Under the pieces are notes generated by a model. That model was not told the DNA's origin and did not search any database. It saw nothing but the letters and a program-made list of their open reading frames with translations. Positions 6,195 to 55,334 of a stretch of DNA of 64,000 nt are shown here, in pieces. This stretch comes from Sulfurovum sp. NBC37-1 (GTDB taxonomy: Bacteria > Campylobacterota > Campylobacteria > Campylobacterales > Sulfurovaceae): positions 1,922,001 through 1,986,000 of the forward strand of contig NC_009663.1 of the NCBI RefSeq assembly GCF_000010345.1, written 5' to 3'. The position numbers were made by a program, and so were the translations under genes. How positions within the stretch are numbered: position 1 is the stretch's first letter; each line of letters starts with the position of its first letter.

Positions 6195-8078
6195 TTATTC
6201 AACCTCTGCATCGATGACATCGTCATCGTCCGCTTTCTTTCCTGCGTCTGCAGCACCCTGCTGACCACCCTGCTCTTTGGCATACGCCGCTTCGGCAAGT
6301 TTGTGGCTCTTCTCAGTCAAGGCTTTGACCTTCTCATCGATCTGCTCTTTCGTAGCATTGTCATCTTTGAGAACTGTCTCAAGATCAGCGATCGCCGCTT
6401 CAATGCCCGCTTTTTCATTCGCATCGAAGTTTTCACCAAGGTCGTCAAGCGATTTTTTGGTCTGGTGGATCAATGCATCCGCCTGGTTCTTCGCCTCAAC
6501 AACCGCTTTACGTTTTTCATCTTCCGCTTTGTGCGCTTCGGCATCCTGAACCATTTTTTCGATCTCTTCATCAGAAAGTCCTGACGAACCGGTGATCTTG
6601 ATCTCCTGAGATTTACCTGTACCCTTGTCTACTGCCGATACGGTCAAGATACCGTTCGCATCAATATCGAAAGTTACTTCGATCTGTGGTACACCTCTTG
6701 GTGCTGCCGGGATGTCTCTCAGTTCAAACATACCAAGTGATTTGTTGTCTTTGGCGAATTCACGTTCTCCCTGGAGAACATGAATACTTACTGCCGGCTG
6801 GTTGTCTTCCGCTGTAGAGAATATCTGTGATTTCTTCGCAGGGATAGTTGTACCTTTTTCAATGACTTTTGTCATCACACCGCCCAATGTTTCGATACCA
6901 AGGCTCAACGGTGTCACATCAAGAAGCAATACATCTTTAACATCACCTGCAAGAACACCACCCTGGATCGCCGCACCAAGTGCAACAACTTCATCAGGAT
7001 TCACAGACTTGTTAAGCTCTTTGTTAAAGAATTTCTTCACTTCTTCCTGAACCAACGGTACTCTGGTGGAACCACCGACCATAACCACTTCTTTGACATC
7101 GTTCTTGCTCAGACCGGCATCTTTCAGTACTGCTTCGATCGTTTTGATCGTCTTTGCCACAAGGTCACCGATCAGTGATTCGAACTTCGCTCTTGTAATT
7201 TTTGTCACAAGGTGCTTTGGCCCGCTCGCATCTGCCGTAATGAACGGAAGGTTGATCTCAGTTTCTGTTGCAGAGGAGAGTTCTTTCTTCGCCGCTTCTG
7301 CAGCATCTTTTACCCTCTGAAGCGCCATAACATCCGCTTTGATATCGATACCACTTTCAGATTTGAATTCATCGGCTACATAGTCAATGATCCTGTTATC
7401 AAAGTCGTCACCACCAAGGAATGCATCACCACCGGTTGCCAATACTTCGACAACCCCGTCACCAGTTTCAAGTGCTGTAACGTCGAACGTACCACCACCA
7501 AGATCGTATACCACAATCTGCTCGGCTTCTTTTTTGTCAAGACCGTAAGCCAATGCTGCCGATGTAGGCTCGTTGATGATTCTCAATACATTCAATCCTG
7601 CAATCGTACCGGCCTCTTTTGTCGCTTTTCTCTGCGCATCATTGAAGTATGCAGGTACTGTAATAACCGCATCGGTTACCGTTTCACCAAGGTATGCTTC
7701 CGCATCCTCTTTCATCTTCATCAATACTTTTGCAGAGATCTCCTGAGGCGTATATGTTTTACCCGCTACCTCAATCGCACACGCACCGTTTCTGTCTATA
7801 ATATGGTAAGGAAGTCTCTCTTTTGCTTCGTTCGCTTTTTCCTCTTCACACATAAGACCCATAATCCTCTTGATAGAGTAGATCGTCTTTTCCGGATTCG
7901 TTACCGCCTGTCTTTTTGCAGATTCACCAACAAGGACTTCACCTTTGTCTGTAAATGCCACGATGGAAGGTGTTGTATTTTTACCTTCTTTGTTGGCAAT
8001 GATCGCCGCTTCGCCGTTTGTATACACTGCCATTGCAGAGTTTGTTGTTCCTAAGTCAATTCCTAATACTTTTCCCAT
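6195..8078 (-). CDS. dnaK: Chaperone DnaK (Hsp70)
   Basis: 627 residues, full length. The nucleotide-binding domain opens with [14 protein letters not shown] and carries DLGGGTFDV and the GGSTRVP motif; the linker [14 protein letters not shown] leads to the substrate-binding domain and an acidic tail ending [11 protein letters not shown]. It folds proteins in the cytosol with DnaJ and GrpE. It is the second gene after grpE, with an unusual 221-nt spacer that holds hairpins. A strong AAAAGGAA site precedes the ATG, and the shared terminator lies at 6125-6166. The upstream promoter has HspR-type sites. Confidence 0.99.
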
Positions 8079-10131: not shown

Positions 10132-11178
10132 ATGCAACAACATATTTACCATCTCTCCCATATCGACCTTGACGGCTATGGCTGTCAGTACCTGACAACA
10201 AAATGTTTTGACAGGATCGAATGTTACAACGCAAACTACGGACCGGAGGTGACCGCCCGTCTTGCAGAGATGGTCAAAAAGATCGAACAGGACAAATTCA
10301 TCCATGGCGACAAGATGGAACCTCTCATTCTCATTACCGACCTTAACCTCACGACCAAAGAGGGGAACTGGATAGAAAAAGAGTCCATACGTATCGGTGC
10401 AAAGCTGCAACTGCTTGACCATCATGCTACAGGGAAATCGGCGGCGGAACGCTTTGCATGGTATAAACTCGATACGACGAAATCCGCTACGCTCATCACG
10501 TACGGATGGTTGCAGCAGCATTACGGTTTTGACAAAAAGAATGAATACGCACAGATCGTCAAAGCGATCAATGCCATCGATATCTGGCTATCGGATGATC
10601 CGCTTTTCGAATACGGTAAAGTGATGCTGGGGATGATCTCAGGCGCCAGAGAGATCAACCGTATTCTTTTCCCTGCCGAAGACAGAGCCTTCAAACTTTC
10701 ACTGATCGAAGCTGCAAAAGCACGTATAGACCATGAAAATGCACCCATCGTACTCGATGATGATCTGCACCAGGTCAAAAAAGCTTTCTTCAAACAGAAG
10801 CAGAACAATACCAAGGACAACCTTGTCGCCTTCTTTGTTACGGACCTGCTCACCAAGGACAAACAGCGTCTTACCATACATTACAAAGGTTACAAGGGCA
10901 TTTTAGGCTACAATGTGGGCAACACTTCCATCATCGGTAATACCTGCATGGTCAACAACCCGGACTACGACTTCTACATGGATGTCAATTTCAGAGGACA
11001 CTTCTCATTGCGCAGCAATAACAAAATGGATGTCTCCGCCATGGCAGCACACATCGGCAACGGTGGTGGACACCCCAATGCCAGCGGCGGGAAGATAGAA
11101 GGATATAAAGACTCATTCGTCTATGCGGATGTACGCAAGTTCATACAGAATTATATAGACGAAAAGACCAACCAATAA
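10132..11178 (+). CDS. DHH/DHHA1-family phosphoesterase (possible nanoRNase)
   Basis: 348 residues with the DHH-family motifs SHIDLDGYGCQ (metal-binding Asp near the N-terminus), LITDLN, LLDHHATGKS and the C-terminal DHHA1 motif GNGGGHPNASGG. Proteins of this family hydrolyse short oligonucleotides, pAp or cyclic dinucleotides; degradation of nanoRNA or pGpG is the most likely role, but the substrate cannot be fixed from sequence. The start is the ATG at 10132 with AAGG 9 nt upstream; an open extension upstream overlaps the Rrf2 gene and is not credible. Confidence 0.85.
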   Translation: MQQHIYHLSHIDLDGYGCQYLTTKCFDRIECYNANYGPEVTARLAEMVKKIEQDKFIHGDKMEPLILITDLNLTTKEGNWIEKESIRIGAKLQLLDHHATGKSAAERFAWYKLDTTKSATLITYGWLQQHYGFDKKNEYAQIVKAINAIDIWLSDDPLFEYGKVMLGMISGAREINRILFPAEDRAFKLSLIEAAKARIDHENAPIVLDDDLHQVKKAFFKQKQNNTKDNLVAFFVTDLLTKDKQRLTIHYKGYKGILGYNVGNTSIIGNTCMVNNPDYDFYMDVNFRGHFSLRSNNKMDVSAMAAHIGNGGGHPNASGGKIEGYKDSFVYADVRKFIQNYIDEKTNQ

Positions 11179-11179
11179 T

Positions 11180-11192
11180 CACACGAAGTGTG
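11180..11192 (+). terminator. Short hairpin after the DHH gene
   Basis: CACAC-GAA-GTGTG follows directly on the stop codon. It is a stable 5-bp hairpin with no T tract, so it is at best a weak terminator or an mRNA end stabiliser. Confidence 0.35.
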
Positions 11193-11233
11193 CTCTGTTG
11201 TAGTGAACGACCTTGAAAGCGAAGCGATTGTCC

Positions 11234-11265
11234 TTGTTCCTGCGGGATTGCATCGATGACACAAA
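11234..11265. repeat. Dispersed intergenic repeat, copy 1
   Basis: TTGTTCCTGCG...TGACACAAA recurs as TTGTTCCTGCG...TGATACAAA at 29698-29726, both in gene-free spacers. The first 11 bp are identical and the middle differs in length by 3 bp. Confidence 0.5.
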
Positions 11266-11346
11266 CACCTCAGTATCAACAAAGGGGGAATTTAAAAACA
11301 TAGTGTAGATTATCATATTCTACGTACAAAAATTTCAACTAAAAAT

Positions 11347-24690: not shown

Positions 24691-25006
24691 TTTAGTAGTG
24701 ATGATAATTGTGCGTAGAGGATTTTCAAAAAGGTTTGAAGGCGAACTCCCCGTTCGTCGATAACCTTTTTGGAAGTCCTATGCGTGCAAGAATCATCGCT
24801 AATAAAGGGCCCGAGTGGCCGTTCTGTTAAAGTCGGCCCTAAAAAAGCCAACGATGCAGGAGAGAGCGGGCCTTTAGGAGGCAATTTCTCACGGGTTACC
24901 CCGTTCGAACGAAAATGTCTACACACCGGCCCGACTACATGTCCCACTAAGAATAATGTTGGACCCCATATACAGTCATCGAACCACTCAGGTTAAATAG
25001 ATTATA
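24691..25006 (+). ncRNA. Candidate structured non-coding RNA, unknown class
   Basis: About 315 nt between purD and hemD with no supportable gene but strong structure. On the plus strand, 24691-24806 folds into a hairpin of roughly 40 pairs; six arm differences are all G-U on the plus strand and would all be A-C mismatches on the minus strand, which argues for plus-strand RNA. AGGGCC/GGCCCT (24806-24840), CGGG/CCCG and CGTTCGAACG hairpins follow. Against this, the minus strand has a TATAAT at 25006-25001. It is not recognisable as tmRNA, RNase P RNA, SRP RNA or 5S. The family is unknown. Confidence 0.55.
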
Positions 25007-46128: not shown

Positions 46129-46267
46129 ACAATAATCTTTAATACTATCTTCAAGGAGCAGACAGTTTATACCCAACACTTTGACACCGAATATCAAATA
46201 CTATAAAAATTGCTTATTTTATATTTATTTTATCTTAGACATGTTATCCTTAAATATTAAAGTATGA

Positions 46268-46358
46268 TACGATGAAAAGCCAAACCTGCTGTGAAAGCAG
46301 GAGCGGAAAGTTGTGGGTCTTCATTTTGAAGACAGCCAGACTGCCAAGCGTAAGCCAT
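46268..46358 (+). ncRNA. Cyclic-di-GMP-I (GEMM) type riboswitch
   Basis: The leader of the giant-protein operon has the GEMM order of elements: CCAAACC, a hairpin CCTGC/GCAGG with a GUGAAA loop, the linker AGCGGAAAG, then a second hairpin opening GGGTCTTC and closing GAAGAC followed by AGCCAGACTGCC. This matches the GGGUC...GACAGCC...UGCC part of the consensus. The outer P1 pairing is weaker than usual. A CTCAG/CTGAG hairpin (46397-46414) follows before the ribosome site and could be the expression platform. The downstream genes are surface and pilin genes, as expected for c-di-GMP control. Confidence 0.75.
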
Positions 46359-46429
46359 AACATTTATGTCATCTTTTGATATACATACGAATTTCACTCA
46401 GTGACGACTGAGTATAGAAGGTGTTACTT

Positions 46430-49400
46430 ATGAAAAATTTGAATTTTATTTTTAAGATATTGTTATTTCTATTTATATTTATTTCTTTTGGAAATGCTGG
46501 GTGGATAAAATCAGGTACTACTGAATGGAGAACAGATCCAAGTCCTTACAACAATAATGATGACTCAACCATGGATGCTGGAATCAGCGGTGCTACACAA
46601 ATTGAAGTAACGATAACTGGTAGTATTGAATATCAGGCATCTTGCGGTTATGATTATGTGCAAATTACCGAAAGCACTGGAGCACACACTGTTCTTAAAA
46701 CATACTGTGGGTCAGGTATTAACGATACATTCACAGTAAATGCCCCTACTATTCGACTAGTATTTCATTCAGATGTAAGCGTAGTAGATACTGGTGTTAT
46801 TGTCACCATTAGAGACACTTCCCCAAATAGAGCCCCCACAGCGAATGACATTACTGCAATAACACATAAAAACGCACCTATTACTATTACACTTATTGGA
46901 TCTGACCCAGATAATAACCCTATAACATATGGTATCGTAACAGGGCCTACAAATGGTTCATTAAATGGTACGGATCCAAGTCTACTCTATACGCCAGATG
47001 CTAATTACACTGGACCTGATTCTTTCACTTACCAAGTATGTGATAATCAGGCTCCTATTTTGTGCGATACTGCAGATGTAAATATTACAGTGACAGAGAA
47101 TCATCCACCTATTGCCAATGATAAAAACTATACAGTGGTAGAAGGTGGAACAATTTTGGGCAATGCAATGTTAGATGATCCTGCAGACTATGATCCTGAT
47201 CCTGTTGATTTTCTTGCAGTTAGTTGGCATTCAGGATTAAGTGATCCCTCAGCAGCAAGTACTTTTACTGGTCCAGATACGACTGGTATATTTATATTTA
47301 CAGCCAGTGTAGGATACGCATCCAACCCAAACAATCCTGTAACTTTTGATTATAATGTTACTGATGGATATGGTGGTGTAGATACAGCAACTGTCACCAT
47401 TAATATTGTAGCGCCAGAAGCTGATCTGGGTATACTAAAATCCGCTCCTGGTGAAGTCGATACAAATAGTCCAATGAGCTATACACTTACTGTGGAAAAT
47501 GATAGCAGCAGCATTTCAGATGCCCAAAATGTCATTGTCGAAGATGTACTGCCTGCAGGTATGCTTTACAATGGGTCTACTGCTCCGTCAGGATGGACAT
47601 GTTCCCTCTCCGCCGGTACCATTACCTGCAGCACAGCTATTTTGCACCCTGGAGAGAATGCGACTATTACCATCAATGGTTTGGCCCCCGCTGTGGGTGG
47701 GGATATCAACAATACAGCCGTAATCTCTTCGGATACACCTGATCCAGATACATCAAATAACACATCCAATATAGTAACAACCACTGTCAAAAAAGTATTA
47801 GCAGATGTTGCAATTACCAAAAGTGCATCACCCAATCCTGTTATTACAGCCAGTCCTCTCGATTATACGCTCACTGTACAGAACATCGGCTCAGGCGATG
47901 CAGGAAATGTTCAGGTTCTCGACAGCCTGCCTTCCGAGTTGCACTTTGTCTCGATCGATGGCGGATCGGACTGGAGTTGTAGCCAGGGGCAACTGATTGT
48001 CTGTGACTACATTGCCAACAGTGGGAAATTGGCATCAGGCAACACTGCTGCGAACATCAATATTCGAGTCACAACCCCTGCAGATGTAGACGACTATAAC
48101 ATTACCAACACTGCTGCGGTCTCTACTTCTACACAAGATACCAATACTACCAACAATACCGATGAAGCAACCGTGACCGTCAATAGTGGTACCAACACAG
48201 GAGCAGACTTTCCATTGACAAAATATCTCCAGTACAACCTCTTTGGTGATATGAAGCTCATCGGTAATGCCAACGTCAACAAACCTTCCAGTGATGCAGA
48301 TCAGAACTATAATGATAATATAGACATGAAGTATGTTGACGATGATGGTGACTCCAGTACCTTCAACTCCTCTTTTTCAACCTTGAACCTTTCCCCTTCA
48401 TACAAAATAGTTTGGGCGGGTCTCTTCTGGGAAGGGCATATTTGTAGTAATAACTCAAATGGCACCGGCAATGGAAACGGTACAGGATGCGACTGGCACC
48501 ACTCAAACTACAACAGCTTCAATGAAGCCAAAGACCATCTTGACGTAATTAAACTGAAAACACCCAATAGGAGCGACTATATCGATATTACCGCCAATAA
48601 CCTGAATATCATTGAAAGGAACAGTGTAGATTGGAACTATGCCGCTTTTGCAGACATTACACACCTGCTTGATGAGAATGAGTTCGGCGCCTATGGTGTT
48701 GCCAATATTATATTGACAGAAGGAGTAAAAAGTAACGGTGGTAACTATGGTGGATGGAGTATACTTGCGATCTATGAAGATCCCTCCAAAACACTGCATT
48801 TTAAAAATATTTCGGTATTTAAGGGATTCCAATATATTACAAGCAATGATAATCCTATTGATATTAACGGTTTCGTTACTCCGTTAAGTGGTCCTGTCAC
48901 CGCATCAATTGCGCTCTTTGCCGGTGACGGTGACCCTGTTGTAGGTGGTGTTGCCCGTATGCGTGTCAAAAAAACTTCAACATATAGTCCTATAGGAGAC
49001 TCAGTTATCAATCCGACAGACAACCTGCTCAACAGTACCATCGCTGAATTTGGAACGCCTATCAACAGCGGTGTCACCAAAACTTATGGTGTCGATGCCG
49101 ACCGTGTCGATGTCAGCAGCTTTATGGACAACGATCAGCATGATACACGCTTCTATTTTGACGTTTCGACACCAAGCGGCGGTGTGGACTGGTACTCCCT
49201 TACCATGTTTGCATTTGCTACTGATCTGACCACACCAGTAATCGACGATATCAACAAAAGTGCACAAATCAGAGATAATAATGGTACACTTAGACCTGCC
49301 GGTCCAGGTGAAGAAATATATCCCAACTCGGAACTTATCTACACCCTTAAATTTGAAAATAGCGGAGAAGAAATTGCCGAACAGCTTGAAATTTTTGATG

Positions 49401-52012
49401 ATTTCGATTTTGATTCTTTAACCCCGGCTCTGGACTTAAGCAATTTTGACCTCTCTCAGATCAAACTCTCCGAGCCAAACAGTGCAACTTGGCAGACAAA
49501 TCCAAACTGTGGGTTCAATGCAGGACAGAGACGTGTATGGTGTAAAATTCCACAGGTATTTATTGGCGACAAGTATACAATGCAGTTTGCAGTAAGAATC
49601 AGAAATGATCTAAGGAATATAGAAGATGAAAATGCAACCAATACTGCCTACGCAACCTACAAAAATGCTACAACCGATGAGTATGTTATACTGGTCAGTA
49701 ATGCACACGGAAACTTTGGAGGGAAAAGTAATACCTACAATGCCGGTGTACTTACTATTCCTACTGGATGGGTGTATGGTGCCGTCGGTATGGATGCCAT
49801 AAACGATGACTACCCCTATGCGGCAGATAACAATATTACAACTAAAATAGTCAATAAGTCATTCAAACTTAAACTCGTTCACCTTGATATCTCTGGGTAT
49901 CAATCTGCCTTTACCGGGCCTACGTTCAATATGCCTGTTTTCTTAACTCTCTGGAATGATGACAGTGTCCGGCTAACACCTGAGGGTAATCCTGTACCTG
50001 AATTCTCAAATGGCGAGTCTGAGATTACTGCTTCCGGATTGAACCTGGAAAGAGCACATCAAAGTGACTGGATCAAAATGCACTTTATCGACTGGAATTC
50101 ACTTGACTGGGGCAATTACAATGGTAACTGTATACAGCATAGTACAACTTCAGGGAATTACAAAGGCATACCTCAGTGTCTAAACTCTGATGGAAAACTA
50201 GCAGATCTTTTCCCGGCTGACAAATACCCCCGTGTACATAATATCTGCCTTGGCAATGCACTTAGCCTTAGTGGAAATCAAGTGCCAGCTTGTAGTCCAC
50301 AAGCATATGCAGGCTGGAGTGTAAACTCTGCCAAACATATTCAACCTGAAAAATATAATCATGTTTATGGATGTCTTCATTGTTTGACAGATTCCAACAC
50401 TACCTTTATCAGCAGATCATCCGATGATTTTGCTGCACGTCCAGAAGAGTTCAGCATTAGTTCAACTAATACTTCCTACCCGGATTTGCTACGCTCCGGA
50501 CAAGAGTACAATTTGACCATTCATGCAGAAGATGGACTAGATAACGATACTGCTAACTACGATCGCATAAGCAGTGATATTAATCTGAGTGCCTCCCTTT
50601 ATCTTTCTGATGGCACACAGGACAGCACAGGATCGATGCATGGAACTGCACAAAAAACTTCTCCAAGCGACTGGAACATTACAAATGGTGTTTCTCAAGT
50701 TCAAGACACAACAAGTACAGATGTTGTAGGATTTTCATTTGATGACGTGGGTGACGTTACTATAAATATCCGTGATCTTACCTGGTCTGCAACAGATGAG
50801 GATGATACGCCATACGACTGCAATATAACAACAACAACCATTGCAAATGGAGAGACTAAGGCTATTGAAGGAGGAGCGTATATCTGTGGCGAAACCCCAA
50901 AACTTACATTTATACCCCACCACTTTACCCTTAGCGGTGTGCACCTCAACAATCATGCACAAAAAGGATTTACCTACCTCTCCAATGATCTCAATATGTC
51001 TGCTCATGTAGAAGTTACTATCTCCGCGATGAATGCGCTAGAAGGAGTAACTACAAATTTCCGTAAAGACAATGGATATTATGAACATGCTGTCAACGTT
51101 AGCATGAGGGTCACTGACTGGAACCCATTATTACCTGTGACGACACGACATCCTCTCAATAACTCTGTACGTATTCATGATATTAATCAGACATTGGCCG
51201 GAGCTCAGATTCCGGCAAAGCTCCTTGGTTTTGGAGGAACCGATGCAAACGGTACACATATCATTGACGTAAATGAGAGCGATGAAACACAAAAACTGAT
51301 GTTCAATTATTCACGCAACAACAACGAACCAATTAATCCGTTTGAAGTACCGGGTACCGACATAAATCTTACGGTTATCTCTAACTATAGCGGTACTGCT
51401 CCTGAAGGAAGTGCAACAATCACTGGCACTAATTTAGCCGATGCCAATGCAACTTTTCTCTTTGGTAGGACAAAATCATCCAAGTTCTTCTATGACGATG
51501 TAACTGGCAGCAGCCAGAAAACACCTATTTCCATTGTCGTATATTGCGACAAATGGCCAACAAGTGCTGCAAACTGCCCGGGAGTTGACCTTGTATACGG
51601 GTCAACAAATGAAAATAAATGGTGGCTCTCCACCGGCCATGACATGACAGATAATGATGGAAACATTACATTAACTGTCAGTTCAAGTGCTGGTAGTCTA
51701 AATACACCTAATGTCAATATCATTTCAGCAACTAATGATGGTACAGACAACAACATCATTGTAAATTATCCTCTAAACAGTACTCGCCCTTATATTGTAG
51801 ATATAGACCTTGTTACCACAAACCCGACAGATACAAGTTCCTGGCTTATATACAATCCAGACTCTACTATATCAGCTTCTTCTCCATTCTACAGAGTACG
51901 GTTTATCGGTACGGGTGGTGGTAATTGGAGTACTACAGGAAATTTACCTGGTGTGGGAAGTGTTGTAGACGACAATGTAAGCAGGAATAAATCCAACAGG
52001 GTGGAGTGGTAA
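46430..52012 (+). CDS. Giant secreted MshQ-like adhesin with CUB-like, Ig-like and DUF11 domains
   Basis: 1860 residues. A signal peptide ends near GNA (residue 23). Then come a CUB-like domain with two Cys (about 24-130), two cadherin/Ig-like repeats (ANDITAITHKNAPITITLIG; ANDKNYTVVEGG), two DUF11 repeats (starting ADLGILKSAPGEVDTNSP and ADVAITKSASPNPVITASP), a large middle domain, a third DUF11-like segment near 950 and, from about 1330, an MshQ/DUF6701-like C-terminal region (FAARPEEFSISS...CGETPKLTFIPHHFTL). It ends NRVEW. It is probably exported and displayed with the pilins encoded just downstream; a tip adhesin role is inferred. Thr/Asn-rich composition differs from neighbouring genes. 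Confidence 0.8.
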   Translation: MKNLNFIFKILLFLFIFISFGNAGWIKSGTTEWRTDPSPYNNNDDSTMDAGISGATQIEVTITGSIEYQASCGYDYVQITESTGAHTVLKTYCGSGINDTFTVNAPTIRLVFHSDVSVVDTGVIVTIRDTSPNRAPTANDITAITHKNAPITITLIGSDPDNNPITYGIVTGPTNGSLNGTDPSLLYTPDANYTGPDSFTYQVCDNQAPILCDTADVNITVTENHPPIANDKNYTVVEGGTILGNAMLDDPADYDPDPVDFLAVSWHSGLSDPSAASTFTGPDTTGIFIFTASVGYASNPNNPVTFDYNVTDGYGGVDTATVTINIVAPEADLGILKSAPGEVDTNSPMSYTLTVENDSSSISDAQNVIVEDVLPAGMLYNGSTAPSGWTCSLSAGTITCSTAILHPGENATITINGLAPAVGGDINNTAVISSDTPDPDTSNNTSNIVTTTVKKVLADVAITKSASPNPVITASPLDYTLTVQNIGSGDAGNVQVLDSLPSELHFVSIDGGSDWSCSQGQLIVCDYIANSGKLASGNTAANINIRVTTPADVDDYNITNTAAVSTSTQDTNTTNNTDEATVTVNSGTNTGADFPLTKYLQYNLFGDMKLIGNANVNKPSSDADQNYNDNIDMKYVDDDGDSSTFNSSFSTLNLSPSYKIVWAGLFWEGHICSNNSNGTGNGNGTGCDWHHSNYNSFNEAKDHLDVIKLKTPNRSDYIDITANNLNIIERNSVDWNYAAFADITHLLDENEFGAYGVANIILTEGVKSNGGNYGGWSILAIYEDPSKTLHFKNISVFKGFQYITSNDNPIDINGFVTPLSGPVTASIALFAGDGDPVVGGVARMRVKKTSTYSPIGDSVINPTDNLLNSTIAEFGTPINSGVTKTYGVDADRVDVSSFMDNDQHDTRFYFDVSTPSGGVDWYSLTMFAFATDLTTPVIDDINKSAQIRDNNGTLRPAGPGEEIYPNSELIYTLKFENSGEEIAEQLEIFDDFDFDSLTPALDLSNFDLSQIKLSEPNSATWQTNPNCGFNAGQRRVWCKIPQVFIGDKYTMQFAVRIRNDLRNIEDENATNTAYATYKNATTDEYVILVSNAHGNFGGKSNTYNAGVLTIPTGWVYGAVGMDAINDDYPYAADNNITTKIVNKSFKLKLVHLDISGYQSAFTGPTFNMPVFLTLWNDDSVRLTPEGNPVPEFSNGESEITASGLNLERAHQSDWIKMHFIDWNSLDWGNYNGNCIQHSTTSGNYKGIPQCLNSDGKLADLFPADKYPRVHNICLGNALSLSGNQVPACSPQAYAGWSVNSAKHIQPEKYNHVYGCLHCLTDSNTTFISRSSDDFAARPEEFSISSTNTSYPDLLRSGQEYNLTIHAEDGLDNDTANYDRISSDINLSASLYLSDGTQDSTGSMHGTAQKTSPSDWNITNGVSQVQDTTSTDVVGFSFDDVGDVTINIRDLTWSATDEDDTPYDCNITTTTIANGETKAIEGGAYICGETPKLTFIPHHFTLSGVHLNNHAQKGFTYLSNDLNMSAHVEVTISAMNALEGVTTNFRKDNGYYEHAVNVSMRVTDWNPLLPVTTRHPLNNSVRIHDINQTLAGAQIPAKLLGFGGTDANGTHIIDVNESDETQKLMFNYSRNNNEPINPFEVPGTDINLTVISNYSGTAPEGSATITGTNLADANATFLFGRTKSSKFFYDDVTGSSQKTPISIVVYCDKWPTSAANCPGVDLVYGSTNENKWWLSTGHDMTDNDGNITLTVSSSAGSLNTPNVNIISATNDGTDNNIIVNYPLNSTRPYIVDIDLVTTNPTDTSSWLIYNPDSTISASSPFYRVRFIGTGGGNWSTTGNLPGVGSVVDDNVSRNKSNRVEW

Positions 52013-52714
52013 ATGAAAATAACATATTTTACACCTGCCATTGCTATGATAGAGCTTATCTTTGCCATTGTCATTATGGGGATCGTATTGATGTCGGCCC
52101 CTATGCTCATTAGCACTGCCCAAAAAAGTACCACTGTAGTACTGCAACAAGAGGGTGTTAACCAGGCAGTATCGAGAATTACGATGATACTTACCTATGC
52201 CTGGGATGAAAATGACACAAATAGTTCGTGCATACCTCCTGTTTTACACGTAACAAATGGAGATAGTGAACTGGATCCCATGGCAACAGATCCAAGTAGG
52301 CGAATCGGTGTTCCGTTGACTTCCACAACACGCAAATTTAACACCTGCTTGAATGATCTCAACGCTTCGGTGATAGGAATGGACCTTGGTGACACTATAA
52401 AAGATGATATAGATGACTTTGGGAATACCGCTCTTTCAACCATACAAAATGCCGGAGGTAGATACATTGGGAAAGACCATGTTGATATAAATACTACTAT
52501 TACTTATGGTTCAGATACTGTCACCTACAGTAATGGTGGAGCTACACCTATCAGCTTCATACCATCTCCCGGTGCTGCAACCAGCAATGTTAAAAATATA
52601 GATGTCAATGTAACAACTTTTCCAAGTGATGCGGAACTTAAAAGCTCCATCGTGATGCATGCATTTAGCTGTAATATAGGCGGTATAGGCTATGAAATGA
52701 GGATACTTCCATGA
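52013..52714 (+). CDS. Prepilin-like protein 1
   Basis: 233 residues. A short leader (MKITYFTPA) precedes IAMIELIFAIVIMGIVL, so cleavage after Ala puts Glu at +5 of the mature hydrophobic helix. The rest is a globular domain with two or three cysteines. It starts immediately after the giant gene's stop. Its family cannot be narrowed beyond type IV pilin/pseudopilin; by order and size it resembles the minor pilins found next to MshQ-like proteins. Confidence 0.85.
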   Translation: MKITYFTPAIAMIELIFAIVIMGIVLMSAPMLISTAQKSTTVVLQQEGVNQAVSRITMILTYAWDENDTNSSCIPPVLHVTNGDSELDPMATDPSRRIGVPLTSTTRKFNTCLNDLNASVIGMDLGDTIKDDIDDFGNTALSTIQNAGGRYIGKDHVDINTTITYGSDTVTYSNGGATPISFIPSPGAATSNVKNIDVNVTTFPSDAELKSSIVMHAFSCNIGGIGYEMRILP

Positions 52715-53568
52715 AAAATCTACAACACTTAAAAAGTGCCTTTAGCATGTTAGAGCTTATTTTTGTCATTGTTATTCTTGGAATTGTCTCGTCCATAGGT
52801 GCAGAAGTCATAGCACAAGTCTATGAAAGCTACATTGTGCAGCGTGCACAATACCGGGCAAATACAAAGACAGAACAGGCACTCAACCAGATTGCCAACC
52901 GCTTGCGCTATGCTATACCCGGAACAGTAGGCGCCAGAGTCTCCAAGACAAGTGCATTCATATCCATTACCGAAATCACCAGCACTGCCCAAAGAGATGT
53001 ATTGCAATGGGTGGGTGAGGACGGTGACAGCTTCGAAGCAATGACTAGTACTTCCAGAAGACCGGGATGGAGCGGGTTTATTGATCTTAATCAGAGTACT
53101 ACGACAACACTTGTCAGTCCCAGTTCAAATCTTGGTCTTACTGATGAGATTATTCAAAAACTGAGTGGCGGATCTAAAACTATCTCAAACGCCAAACTCT
53201 ATTTTCCTAATGGACTTCCAAGTATAAATGTTACCGCCGGATCCACCGGCGAAAACATTAATGTTTCAGGTCTCTCCTCCGGCAGTACAATCAGTGAACG
53301 CTATAAGCTTGCATGGAGTTCTTACGCTATTGTGTTTGAGGGAAGTGACCTGTGGCTTTATTATAATTTTGCACCTAATTTTGGTGCATCATTGGGAACG
53401 ATAAAAAGCAAACTACTTTCCAATGTCACTACATTTAGTTTTCAGGGAAGTGAAGGCTCTTTGCGTATCAAAGTATGTCAATATGAATCTATAGATAGCA
53501 ATGTTTCAGTTGCTGTTGACACAACAAAATCTGCACATTCTTGTAAAGAAAAAATTGTATTGTATTAG
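52711..53568 (+). CDS. Prepilin-like protein 2 (PilW/GspJ-like)
   Basis: 285 residues. Leader MKNLQHLKSA, then FSMLELIFVIVILGIVSSIG with Glu at +5; cleavage would be after Ala. The globular part follows with a QNRLRY-like segment (TEQALNQIANRLRYAIPGTVG) typical of PilW/GspJ-type minor pilins. Cysteines appear near the C-terminus. It overlaps pilin 1 by ATGA. Confidence 0.85.
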   Translation: MKNLQHLKSAFSMLELIFVIVILGIVSSIGAEVIAQVYESYIVQRAQYRANTKTEQALNQIANRLRYAIPGTVGARVSKTSAFISITEITSTAQRDVLQWVGEDGDSFEAMTSTSRRPGWSGFIDLNQSTTTTLVSPSSNLGLTDEIIQKLSGGSKTISNAKLYFPNGLPSINVTAGSTGENINVSGLSSGSTISERYKLAWSSYAIVFEGSDLWLYYNFAPNFGASLGTIKSKLLSNVTTFSFQGSEGSLRIKVCQYESIDSNVSVAVDTTKSAHSCKEKIVLY

Positions 53569-53578
53569 AAGGGAACAC

Positions 53579-54031
53579 ATGAGAAAAGCATTTTCAATGA
53601 TTACAGCCATCTTTATCATCATCATAATGGCTACCATCGCTATGTTTGTTATGAGCCTTAGTGGGAAGGGTGTAAAAGCAACCACTGCCCAATATCAGAG
53701 AGCGCAAGCTATGCTTTATGCAAAAAGCTATACGGAATTTGCCATTATGGCAGTGACCGGACATAATAGAATTGCTAATTGTGTCGAGGATATCAATGGC
53801 AATATTGGCAATATCAATCAGGGAGGCTATGAAATACGAACACATATCGCCTATATTGGTCCTATATCTGAGATAGGGAACTGCAGACCAGACCAGCAAC
53901 TCAGCACGAATGTAACGACTCCTGAAACACCGCTTACTATTATCGTGGATGCCTATGTGGATTACGAAGATCCTGACAATACCGGTGCTCCAAAAGTCAC
54001 GGTTCATAGACGTACGGTACAAAAGATATGA
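53579..54031 (+). CDS. Prepilin-like protein 3, lacking Glu5 (PilX/GspK-like)
   Basis: 150 residues. The very short leader MRKA precedes FSMITAIFIIIIMATIAMFVM: the hydrophobic helix is kept but +5 is Thr, not Glu. Loss of Glu5 is the hallmark of the tip pseudopilin GspK and relatives. A RAQAMLYAKSYTEFAIM helix, like the R-A-x-x-x-A-x-S-x-x-E pattern of PilX, follows. AGAAGGGA precedes the ATG. It overlaps pilin 4 by ATGA. Confidence 0.8.
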   Translation: MRKAFSMITAIFIIIIMATIAMFVMSLSGKGVKATTAQYQRAQAMLYAKSYTEFAIMAVTGHNRIANCVEDINGNIGNINQGGYEIRTHIAYIGPISEIGNCRPDQQLSTNVTTPETPLTIIVDAYVDYEDPDNTGAPKVTVHRRTVQKI

Positions 54032-54042
54032 AAGGTTTACAC

Positions 54043-54696
54043 ATGAAACGAGATGCCTTTACCATGCTTGAGCTTGTCTTTGTCATTGTCATACTGGGCA
54101 TCATTGCCGCACTTGCAATACCAAGACTGGACCGGGACCTCAAACAGGGAGCTGCTGATAATATACTCTCTGCAATTCGATATACACAACACTTGGCTCT
54201 TCTTGACGATAAACAAAAATTTAATGATGCAAAATGGCAGCGGCGTTTCTGGCATATTGTCTTTGGAACATGTACGGGAAACGACAAATATTATATGGTT
54301 GGCAGTGATAACAATATGACTGGCTCAACCAACGCATATTTTACACAAAATGAAGCCGCATTGGATCCGGCAAACGGCAAAGCAATGTTTTGGACAAACG
54401 GAGTAGACTGTAGCACTGGTGGTGACAATAATGTGAGCGAAAATATTTTTATTAGTAAAAAATATGGTATTAAAACTATTGCACCTAGTGGAGGGTGCAG
54501 TAATCTTTATGTAGGCTTTGACCATCTCGGTCGTCCTTACAGCAGCGGATTTCCGAATTCCACCAAACCAAATAATGCAGGTCACTTGTCATCAATGTGT
54601 ACATTTACCTTTACTATGTCTGACGATAGCACTTTTGCAATTAAAATTGAACCAGAAACAGGCTATGCATATATTTCTGGACAAAATAACTCATAA
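54043..54696 (+). CDS. Prepilin-like protein 4 (GspH/FimT-like)
   Basis: 217 residues from the ATG at 54043, which has AAAGG upstream; an ATG at 54028 overlapping the previous stop would add five residues. The leader MKRDA precedes FTMLELVFVIVILGIIAALAIPRL with Glu at +5. The Pro after the helix and the SAIRYTQHLALLDDKQ segment resemble GspH/FimT. Four cysteines in the second half could form disulfides. It is the last gene of the operon. Confidence 0.85.
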   Translation: MKRDAFTMLELVFVIVILGIIAALAIPRLDRDLKQGAADNILSAIRYTQHLALLDDKQKFNDAKWQRRFWHIVFGTCTGNDKYYMVGSDNNMTGSTNAYFTQNEAALDPANGKAMFWTNGVDCSTGGDNNVSENIFISKKYGIKTIAPSGGCSNLYVGFDHLGRPYSSGFPNSTKPNNAGHLSSMCTFTFTMSDDSTFAIKIEPETGYAYISGQNNS

Positions 54697-54800: not shown

Positions 54801-55334
54801 ATGAATAAAAGTATTACAGGAAGACATTTCGAACTGACCGATGCCATTAAAGCCTATGCTGATGCACTGTTGGAAGGCCTCAAGAAATACCACTTGGATA
54901 TCACCTCAGCCAATATCGTTATTTCAGCAGATGAGAAGAACGGAAAAAAAGGTTTTCATGTAGAATTCATCGTAAATCTAAAAGACAAGAATACTGTCGT
55001 CATCACACAGGTGGATAAAGATGTCTATGCCGCTATGGATCTTGCCAGCGAAAGAGTGAAAAAGAGCCTCAGAAGACACAAAGAGAAGATCAAAGACCAC
55101 AAGGTCATGAGCTTTAAAGACATGGGTGAAGAGGCAGAAGCTGTTTCAGAAATTGCCACTGAAGATATCGAGATCGTACCAATGGATCTTGAACTTCATA
55201 AACCGCTTGACTTTGAGGAAGCCATCGATGCACTCAGGGAAGAGAAAAAAAGACAGTTCATCGTCTTTAACGACTATGATGGCCATATGAGAGTCATGTA
55301 CAAAAGAGCTGACGGGAAGTTCGGACTTTATTAA
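54801..55334 (+). CDS. hpf: Ribosome hibernation promoting factor, long form
   Basis: 177 residues: an S30AE/YfiA domain (MNKSITGRHFELTDAIKAYADALLEGLKKY) and a C-terminal dimerisation domain (EAIDALREEKKRQFIVFNDYDGHMRVMYKRADGKFGLY). The long form makes 100S ribosome dimers by itself in stationary phase. AAAGGA precedes the ATG. It is followed by the palindrome at 55340. Confidence 0.95.
   Translation: MNKSITGRHFELTDAIKAYADALLEGLKKYHLDITSANIVISADEKNGKKGFHVEFIVNLKDKNTVVITQVDKDVYAAMDLASERVKKSLRRHKEKIKDHKVMSFKDMGEEAEAVSEIATEDIEIVPMDLELHKPLDFEEAIDALREEKKRQFIVFNDYDGHMRVMYKRADGKFGLY

Follow-up and report, generated by a model that had tools for sequence, protein, structure and literature searches.

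A class I c-di-GMP riboswitch heads a conserved operon for a putative MSHA-type pilus tip in Sulfurovum

In the MSHA gene cluster of Vibrio, mshO and mshP are followed by mshQ, which lies at the end of the operon. MshQ has been called a putative adhesin of the MSHA pilus; in V. cholerae, less MSHA is found on the surface when MshQ is lost, and c-di-GMP promotes both MSHA production and attachment (PMC7096442). Binding of c-di-GMP by MshE-type ATPases has been assigned to the MshEN motif, a tandem RLGxx..G....LxxxLxxQ (PMC5013675), and minor pilins are known to prime pilus extension (PMC9815625). Riboswitches responding to c-di-GMP have also been described ahead of surface structures, including the class II, transcriptional pilA1 riboswitch of Clostridium difficile, which precedes a major pilin, and the class I, transcriptional ON switch Bc2 of Bacillus thuringiensis, which precedes a collagen adhesion gene (PMC6366702).

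The locus described here lies in a 64,000-nucleotide stretch of the Sulfurovum sp. NBC37-1 genome (the window). It resembles mshO-mshP-mshQ in combining an MshQ-type DUF6701 C-terminus with minor prepilins in one operon, and the genome likewise possesses an MSHA-like machine with MshE, a secretin and PilT. It differs from the Vibrio arrangement in that the adhesin gene stands first rather than last, four prepilins are encoded, the operon is apart from the machine genes, a riboswitch occupies the leader and the MshE homologue is without the RLG...Q c-di-GMP motif. A c-di-GMP riboswitch before type IV pilus genes is shared with pilA1, whereas the Sulfurovum element is of class I, precedes a tip adhesin and minor pilins and has no terminator seen. 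With Bc2 it shares the class, a surface adhesin as target and the ON direction, the last being inferred for Sulfurovum; Bc2 differs in serving a Gram-positive adhesin through transcriptional control, with no pilins. The riboswitch-led MSHA-type tip operon is real and conserved, and consists of known parts in a new arrangement. Its position at a fixed site, with a probably exchangeable tip locus, is also new. No paper combining c-di-GMP, riboswitch and Sulfurovum was found among the open-access papers searched.

Table 1. Features of the riboswitch-led operon and its right border (window coordinates)
Feature	Position	Strand	Basis or remark
Extended -10 promoter element (TGTTATCCT)	46243..46251	+	Shared element in other leaders
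c-di-GMP-I (GEMM-I) riboswitch aptamer	46269..46348	+	RF01051
Leader from aptamer to start codon: hairpin A (~46349-46368), hairpin ACTCAG..CTGAGT, Shine-Dalgarno AGAAGGTG	46349..46429	+	
Putative MshQ-like giant tip adhesin, 1860 aa, ATG start: signal peptide, CUB, 2 Big_9, 2 DUF11, C-terminal DUF6701 region	46430..52012	+	
Minor prepilin 1, 233 aa, Glu+5 present	52013..52714	+	Weak N_methyl match; conserved position in synteny
Minor prepilin 2, 285 aa	52711..53568	+	TIGR02532 above cut-off
Minor prepilin 3, 150 aa, GspK/PilX-like, without Glu+5	53579..54031	+	NF037980 GspK 20.7 bits, far below cut-off of 130; inspection
Minor prepilin 4, 222 aa, GspH/FimT-like	54028..54696	+	N_methyl and TIGR02532 above cut-off
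HPF-like gene, right border of fixed site, outside operon	54801..55334	+	Same neighbour in 42/60 neighbourhoods, median 79% identity

The initial annotation had placed a GEMM-type aptamer directly before the operon and had proposed a covariance search with RF01051 as a check. The search returned a full-length match of 53.6 bits, well above the gathering score of 35, where a low score would have spoken against the assignment. The aptamer ends 81 nt ahead of the giant gene's start codon. The specificity base G (46279; model position 11) and the AAA following the core were invariant across an alignment of 34 aptamers (A1), with no A of the cGAMP variants at the specificity position; their equivalence to G20 and the conserved A47 follows a mapping onto model positions made within the present analysis. 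Nearly all family aptamers of A1 (n=34), that of the window included, carry C-G (GCC...CGG) in place of the core G-C pair next to the ligand-binding position, which from the aligned sequences is a lineage-specific compensatory change. A purD RNA motif (RF01069) was also detected in the window at 24809-24938 on the minus strand, scoring 93.5 bits against 41.

Transcription would be expected to start near 46258. Most of the other leaders that carry the riboswitch contain the TG-n-TATNNT element with an upstream TTTTATCTTAG, at much the same spacing from the aptamer. A second leader type, in which a TATAAT-like sequence separates the aptamer from the gene, was seen in L074, L075 and L077. The leader forms an island of nucleotide conservation, with 60-76% identity, beside coding sequence that is not conserved. 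Consensus folding of 15 leaders with RNAalifold supported the aptamer and the hairpin that follows it (hairpin A), with 15 of 25 pairs changed on both sides. Hairpin A was 94% paired over the 15 leaders, with compensatory changes, and the inner P1 helix 73% paired; when the two were scored jointly, covariation exceeded that of all 500 shuffles. Nucleotides on the loop side of hairpin A could base-pair to the Shine-Dalgarno region in 80% of cells; sliding the pairing gave no more than 56%, and 34 of 500 shuffles scored as high, so that this pairing beats the slides and only moderately beats the shuffles. Since the pairing segment overlaps hairpin A itself, the two structures would seem to be mutually exclusive. 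Constrained folding gave a mean Shine-Dalgarno accessibility of 0.49 in the ligand-free and 0.52 in the ligand-bound state, rising in 12 of 17 leaders with no clear separation. Because imposing the aptamer left mean accessibility not clearly changed, the direction of the switch is argued from biology. No U-tract terminator was seen on inspection of the leader.

The five genes span 46430-54696 on the plus strand, and the junctions between them range from -4 to +10 nt. As the initial annotation had described, four prepilin-like proteins share one operon with the giant, and the earlier description of a 1860-residue secreted multidomain protein also held. Neighbouring genes abut or share 4 nt, apart from a single 10-nt gap. 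Pfam matches on the full-length giant comprised CUB, two Big_9 and two DUF11 domains, and a Sec-type signal peptide (MKNLNFIFKILLFLFIFISFGNA) was recognised by inspection. The proposed likeness to MshQ was confirmed at the level of domains by DUF6701, the MshQ-type domain: the C-terminal 610 aa scored 49.6 bits against a cut-off of 27, and a whole-genome scan gave the giant 47.7 bits. The domain was not listed in the full-length Pfam scan of the protein; it was also matched by 17 of 46 homologues of the giant. The C-terminal 560 aa were modelled as Ig-like sandwiches with a mean pLDDT of 74.6, the best structural match being the adhesin FdeC (Z 9.3, 288 residues, rmsd 5.8). Such an array would fit an adhesin stalk without in itself demonstrating a function. 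When a profile of the C-terminus was searched against PDB sequences, nothing convincing emerged. The suggested resemblance to PilY1/minor pilin complexes stands in so far as a large adhesin accompanies minor pilins, as at the type IVa pilus tip, but does not extend to the modelled C-terminal region, which is Ig-like rather than a PilY1-type beta-propeller.

A class III signal peptide and hydrophobic helix were evident by inspection in all four prepilins, two of which had model matches over the cut-off; N_methyl, TIGR02532 or GspK-type matches across the four vary in strength. For prepilin 2, single-sequence structure prediction gave a poor model (pLDDT 37.7).

Reading of ORFs and domains bore out the claim that the operon is without a major pilin, ATPase, platform protein or secretin, and the assembly machine predicted to lie elsewhere was located in the same single contig of 2,562,277 bases. 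An MSHA-like cluster at approximately 1.729-1.738 Mb, some 240 kb from the operon, encodes the MshEN-type ATPase MshE, MshG/GspF, a secretin with Secretin_N_2 and accessory genes, and includes T2SSF. No prepilin genes were found in this cluster. Two PilT-like ATPases and short major-pilin-like genes lie outside it, and a prepilin peptidase is also encoded, so that an MshE-type ATPase, platform protein, secretin and PilT occur together in one genome, as in MSHA-type type IVa pili. A separate T2SS cluster carries its own pseudopilin genes. In S. indicum grown on solid sulfur, biofilm forms without flagella and MshL is raised (PMC10045233).

The genome has 18 GGDEF matches and five RF01051 matches, including that of the window, with one below the cut-off. 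Downstream of the other four lie genes for PilJ-N sensor-like proteins, two large surface-protein-like products and a 188-aa product without a Pfam match. An MshE homologue was present in all 30 genomes tested. The published c-di-GMP motif is replaced in the strain's own MshE (KLIEIMLNEGLITKEAISTLVKSR) and in 27 relatives. Because the RLGxx..Q residues are replaced, direct binding of c-di-GMP by the MshE-type ATPase of the genomes checked is unlikely, as judged from sequence. That the riboswitch compensates for a lost c-di-GMP input at MshE is speculation. A link between riboswitch presence and motif loss was rejected, the motif being degenerate both with and without a riboswitch among the 27 relatives.

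RF01051 was detected in 106 of 175 Sulfurovaceae genomes, at up to 21 per genome (G097 and G137), and parts of the giant protein, mostly its C-terminus, in 93 of the 175. By inspection or Pfam, genes following the riboswitches of the family include TolC-like, adhesin-like, PilJ-N, PAS, response-regulator and HD-type genes, a c-di-GMP-I riboregulon that is apparently unreported so far. Close same-strand pairs at G063:C1:356375-356583, G139:C1:96505-96724 and G069:C2:9006-9220 are possibly tandem switches. In L038, two copies of a 225-aa protein (6541-7218 and 10641-11318, minus strand), identical over the stretch compared, each lie downstream of a riboswitch-led large surface-protein-like gene; one copy was scanned with Pfam and gave no match.

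Sixty Sulfurovaceae neighbourhoods of giant homologues were compared using a covariance model built from the aptamers of the family. The giant and prepilins occurred in the same order in approximately 50, and the aptamer model matched approximately 25, in most cases no more than about 120 nt away from the giant gene. As the same RNA is paired with the same gene in so many homologous neighbourhoods, its placement is not due to chance. The synteny check proposed earlier thus recovered the riboswitch-led operon in other Sulfurovum and in Nitratifractor. Among named contigs, the operon also occurs in Sulfuricurvum, Sulfurimonas, Sulfurospirillum and Hydrogenimonas records, while the riboswitch-led form is confined to Sulfurovum, Nitratifractor and one Epsilonproteobacteria MAG, itself a genome of the family Sulfurovaceae; no riboswitch was found before the operon on named contigs of more distant Campylobacterota. 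Across 397 Campylobacteria, RF01051 was present in 43 and DUF6701 in 31, and no riboswitch was found before a DUF6701 gene outside Sulfurovaceae; in G443, G460 and G513, which were listed with both, the two lie more than 600 kb apart. On this distribution the riboswitch is a lineage-specific addition to the operon. The initial suggestion of a riboswitch-gated tip adhesin for Campylobacterota at large fails, because the riboswitch is absent upstream of many homologues. Homologues without a leader aptamer, named beforehand as counting against the proposal, therefore do exist; the accompanying loss of export was not found, as by inspection they keep their export signals. Low-scoring, decayed-looking aptamers precede the operon at L091:8375-8452 (-), L102:3642-3698 (+) and L090:8640-8722 (-). 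Origin of the riboswitch as a single clade on a tree of MshQ C-termini was rejected, the label being barely clustered (18 changes against a shuffled mean of 20.3) on a quick tree with many weak branches.

The operon occupies one fixed chromosomal site, in the order lon-bamD-operon-hpf-recG, the name HPF being assigned by inspection. Median identity to the window was 87% for Lon, 72% for BamD, 79% for HPF and 82% for RecG, whereas the MshQ C-terminus reached 31% and the prepilins 42-52%. The disparity is evident in G065, with Lon at 96% (partial stretch), BamD at 92% and HPF at 94%, against 29% for the MshQ C-terminus and 36% for prepilin 1. Over 20-27 genomes, identity of MshE tracked that of Lon (rho 0.74) and HPF (rho 0.72) but not that of the MshQ C-terminus (rho 0.11), prepilin 1 (-0.27) or prepilin 2 (-0.16). 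Tip divergence that does not follow genome divergence suggests exchange of alleles at the fixed site, which would be the simplest reading of these identities; fast divergence of the tip proteins may instead be responsible, since identities this low saturate. We offer tentatively the idea of a serotype-like locus, in which the bamD-hpf site would exchange whole adhesin and minor-pilin alleles between lineages while the conserved riboswitch leader would subject any resident allele to control by c-di-GMP, replacing the input lost at MshE.

We consider it fairly probable that the leader is a c-di-GMP ON switch that raises translation of an MSHA-type pilus-tip set, the four minor prepilins and the giant adhesin; control at the level of translation, the ON direction, assembly into a tip and a role in adhesion are what we infer. 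The four prepilins would form an initiation complex carrying the MshQ-like giant at the tip of an MSHA-type type IVa pilus, and the class I riboswitch in the 5' leader would control translation of the whole five-gene set. At high c-di-GMP the aptamer would fold, the leader would rearrange around hairpin A and the ribosome-binding site would be freed. The minor pilins would then initiate pili through the MSHA-like machine of the separate cluster, thus placing the adhesin on each new pilus. The ON direction cannot be assumed, because the two class I riboswitches of V. cholerae act in opposite directions (PMC6366702). In C. difficile, every functional riboswitch of this class is an OFF switch (PMC6366702). 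The same operon and pilus tip could accordingly be governed by an OFF switch, high c-di-GMP lowering the tip set so that, for example, no new pili are made once cells are embedded. The folding means given above do not clearly favour either direction. Surface-protein genes are usually raised by c-di-GMP, and such genes are among the other riboswitch targets of the family. This, together with the promotion of MSHA production and attachment by c-di-GMP in V. cholerae (PMC7096442), makes OFF control unlikely.

It is improbable that the four prepilins serve a type II secretion system, with the giant as a surface protein exported by it and no pilus tip: a T2SS is present in the genome, and prepilins 3 and 4 weakly resemble GspK and GspG/GspH-type models respectively, but the T2SS cluster has pseudopilins of its own where the MSHA-like cluster has none, and the DUF6701 found in the giant is the MshQ-type domain. 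Many homologous operons lack an aptamer and the copies in the L090, L091 and L102 leaders are apparently decaying, as might be expected of a relic with no ligand response ahead of a constitutively expressed operon. We regard this as very doubtful for the window, whose core positions fit and whose core swap is compensatory, and where conservation of the promoter, the aptamer and hairpin A persists next to a rapidly changing coding sequence.

Though they lack flagella, Sulfurovum species build biofilm on particles of sulfur (PMC10045233). An RNA switch sensing c-di-GMP and placed on a pilus-tip set, in a family with up to 21 such riboswitches per genome, would offer a concrete path by which c-di-GMP could act on attachment in this dominant vent group. 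Differences between lineages in what they adhere to may in turn arise at the tip locus, which appears to be exchangeable.
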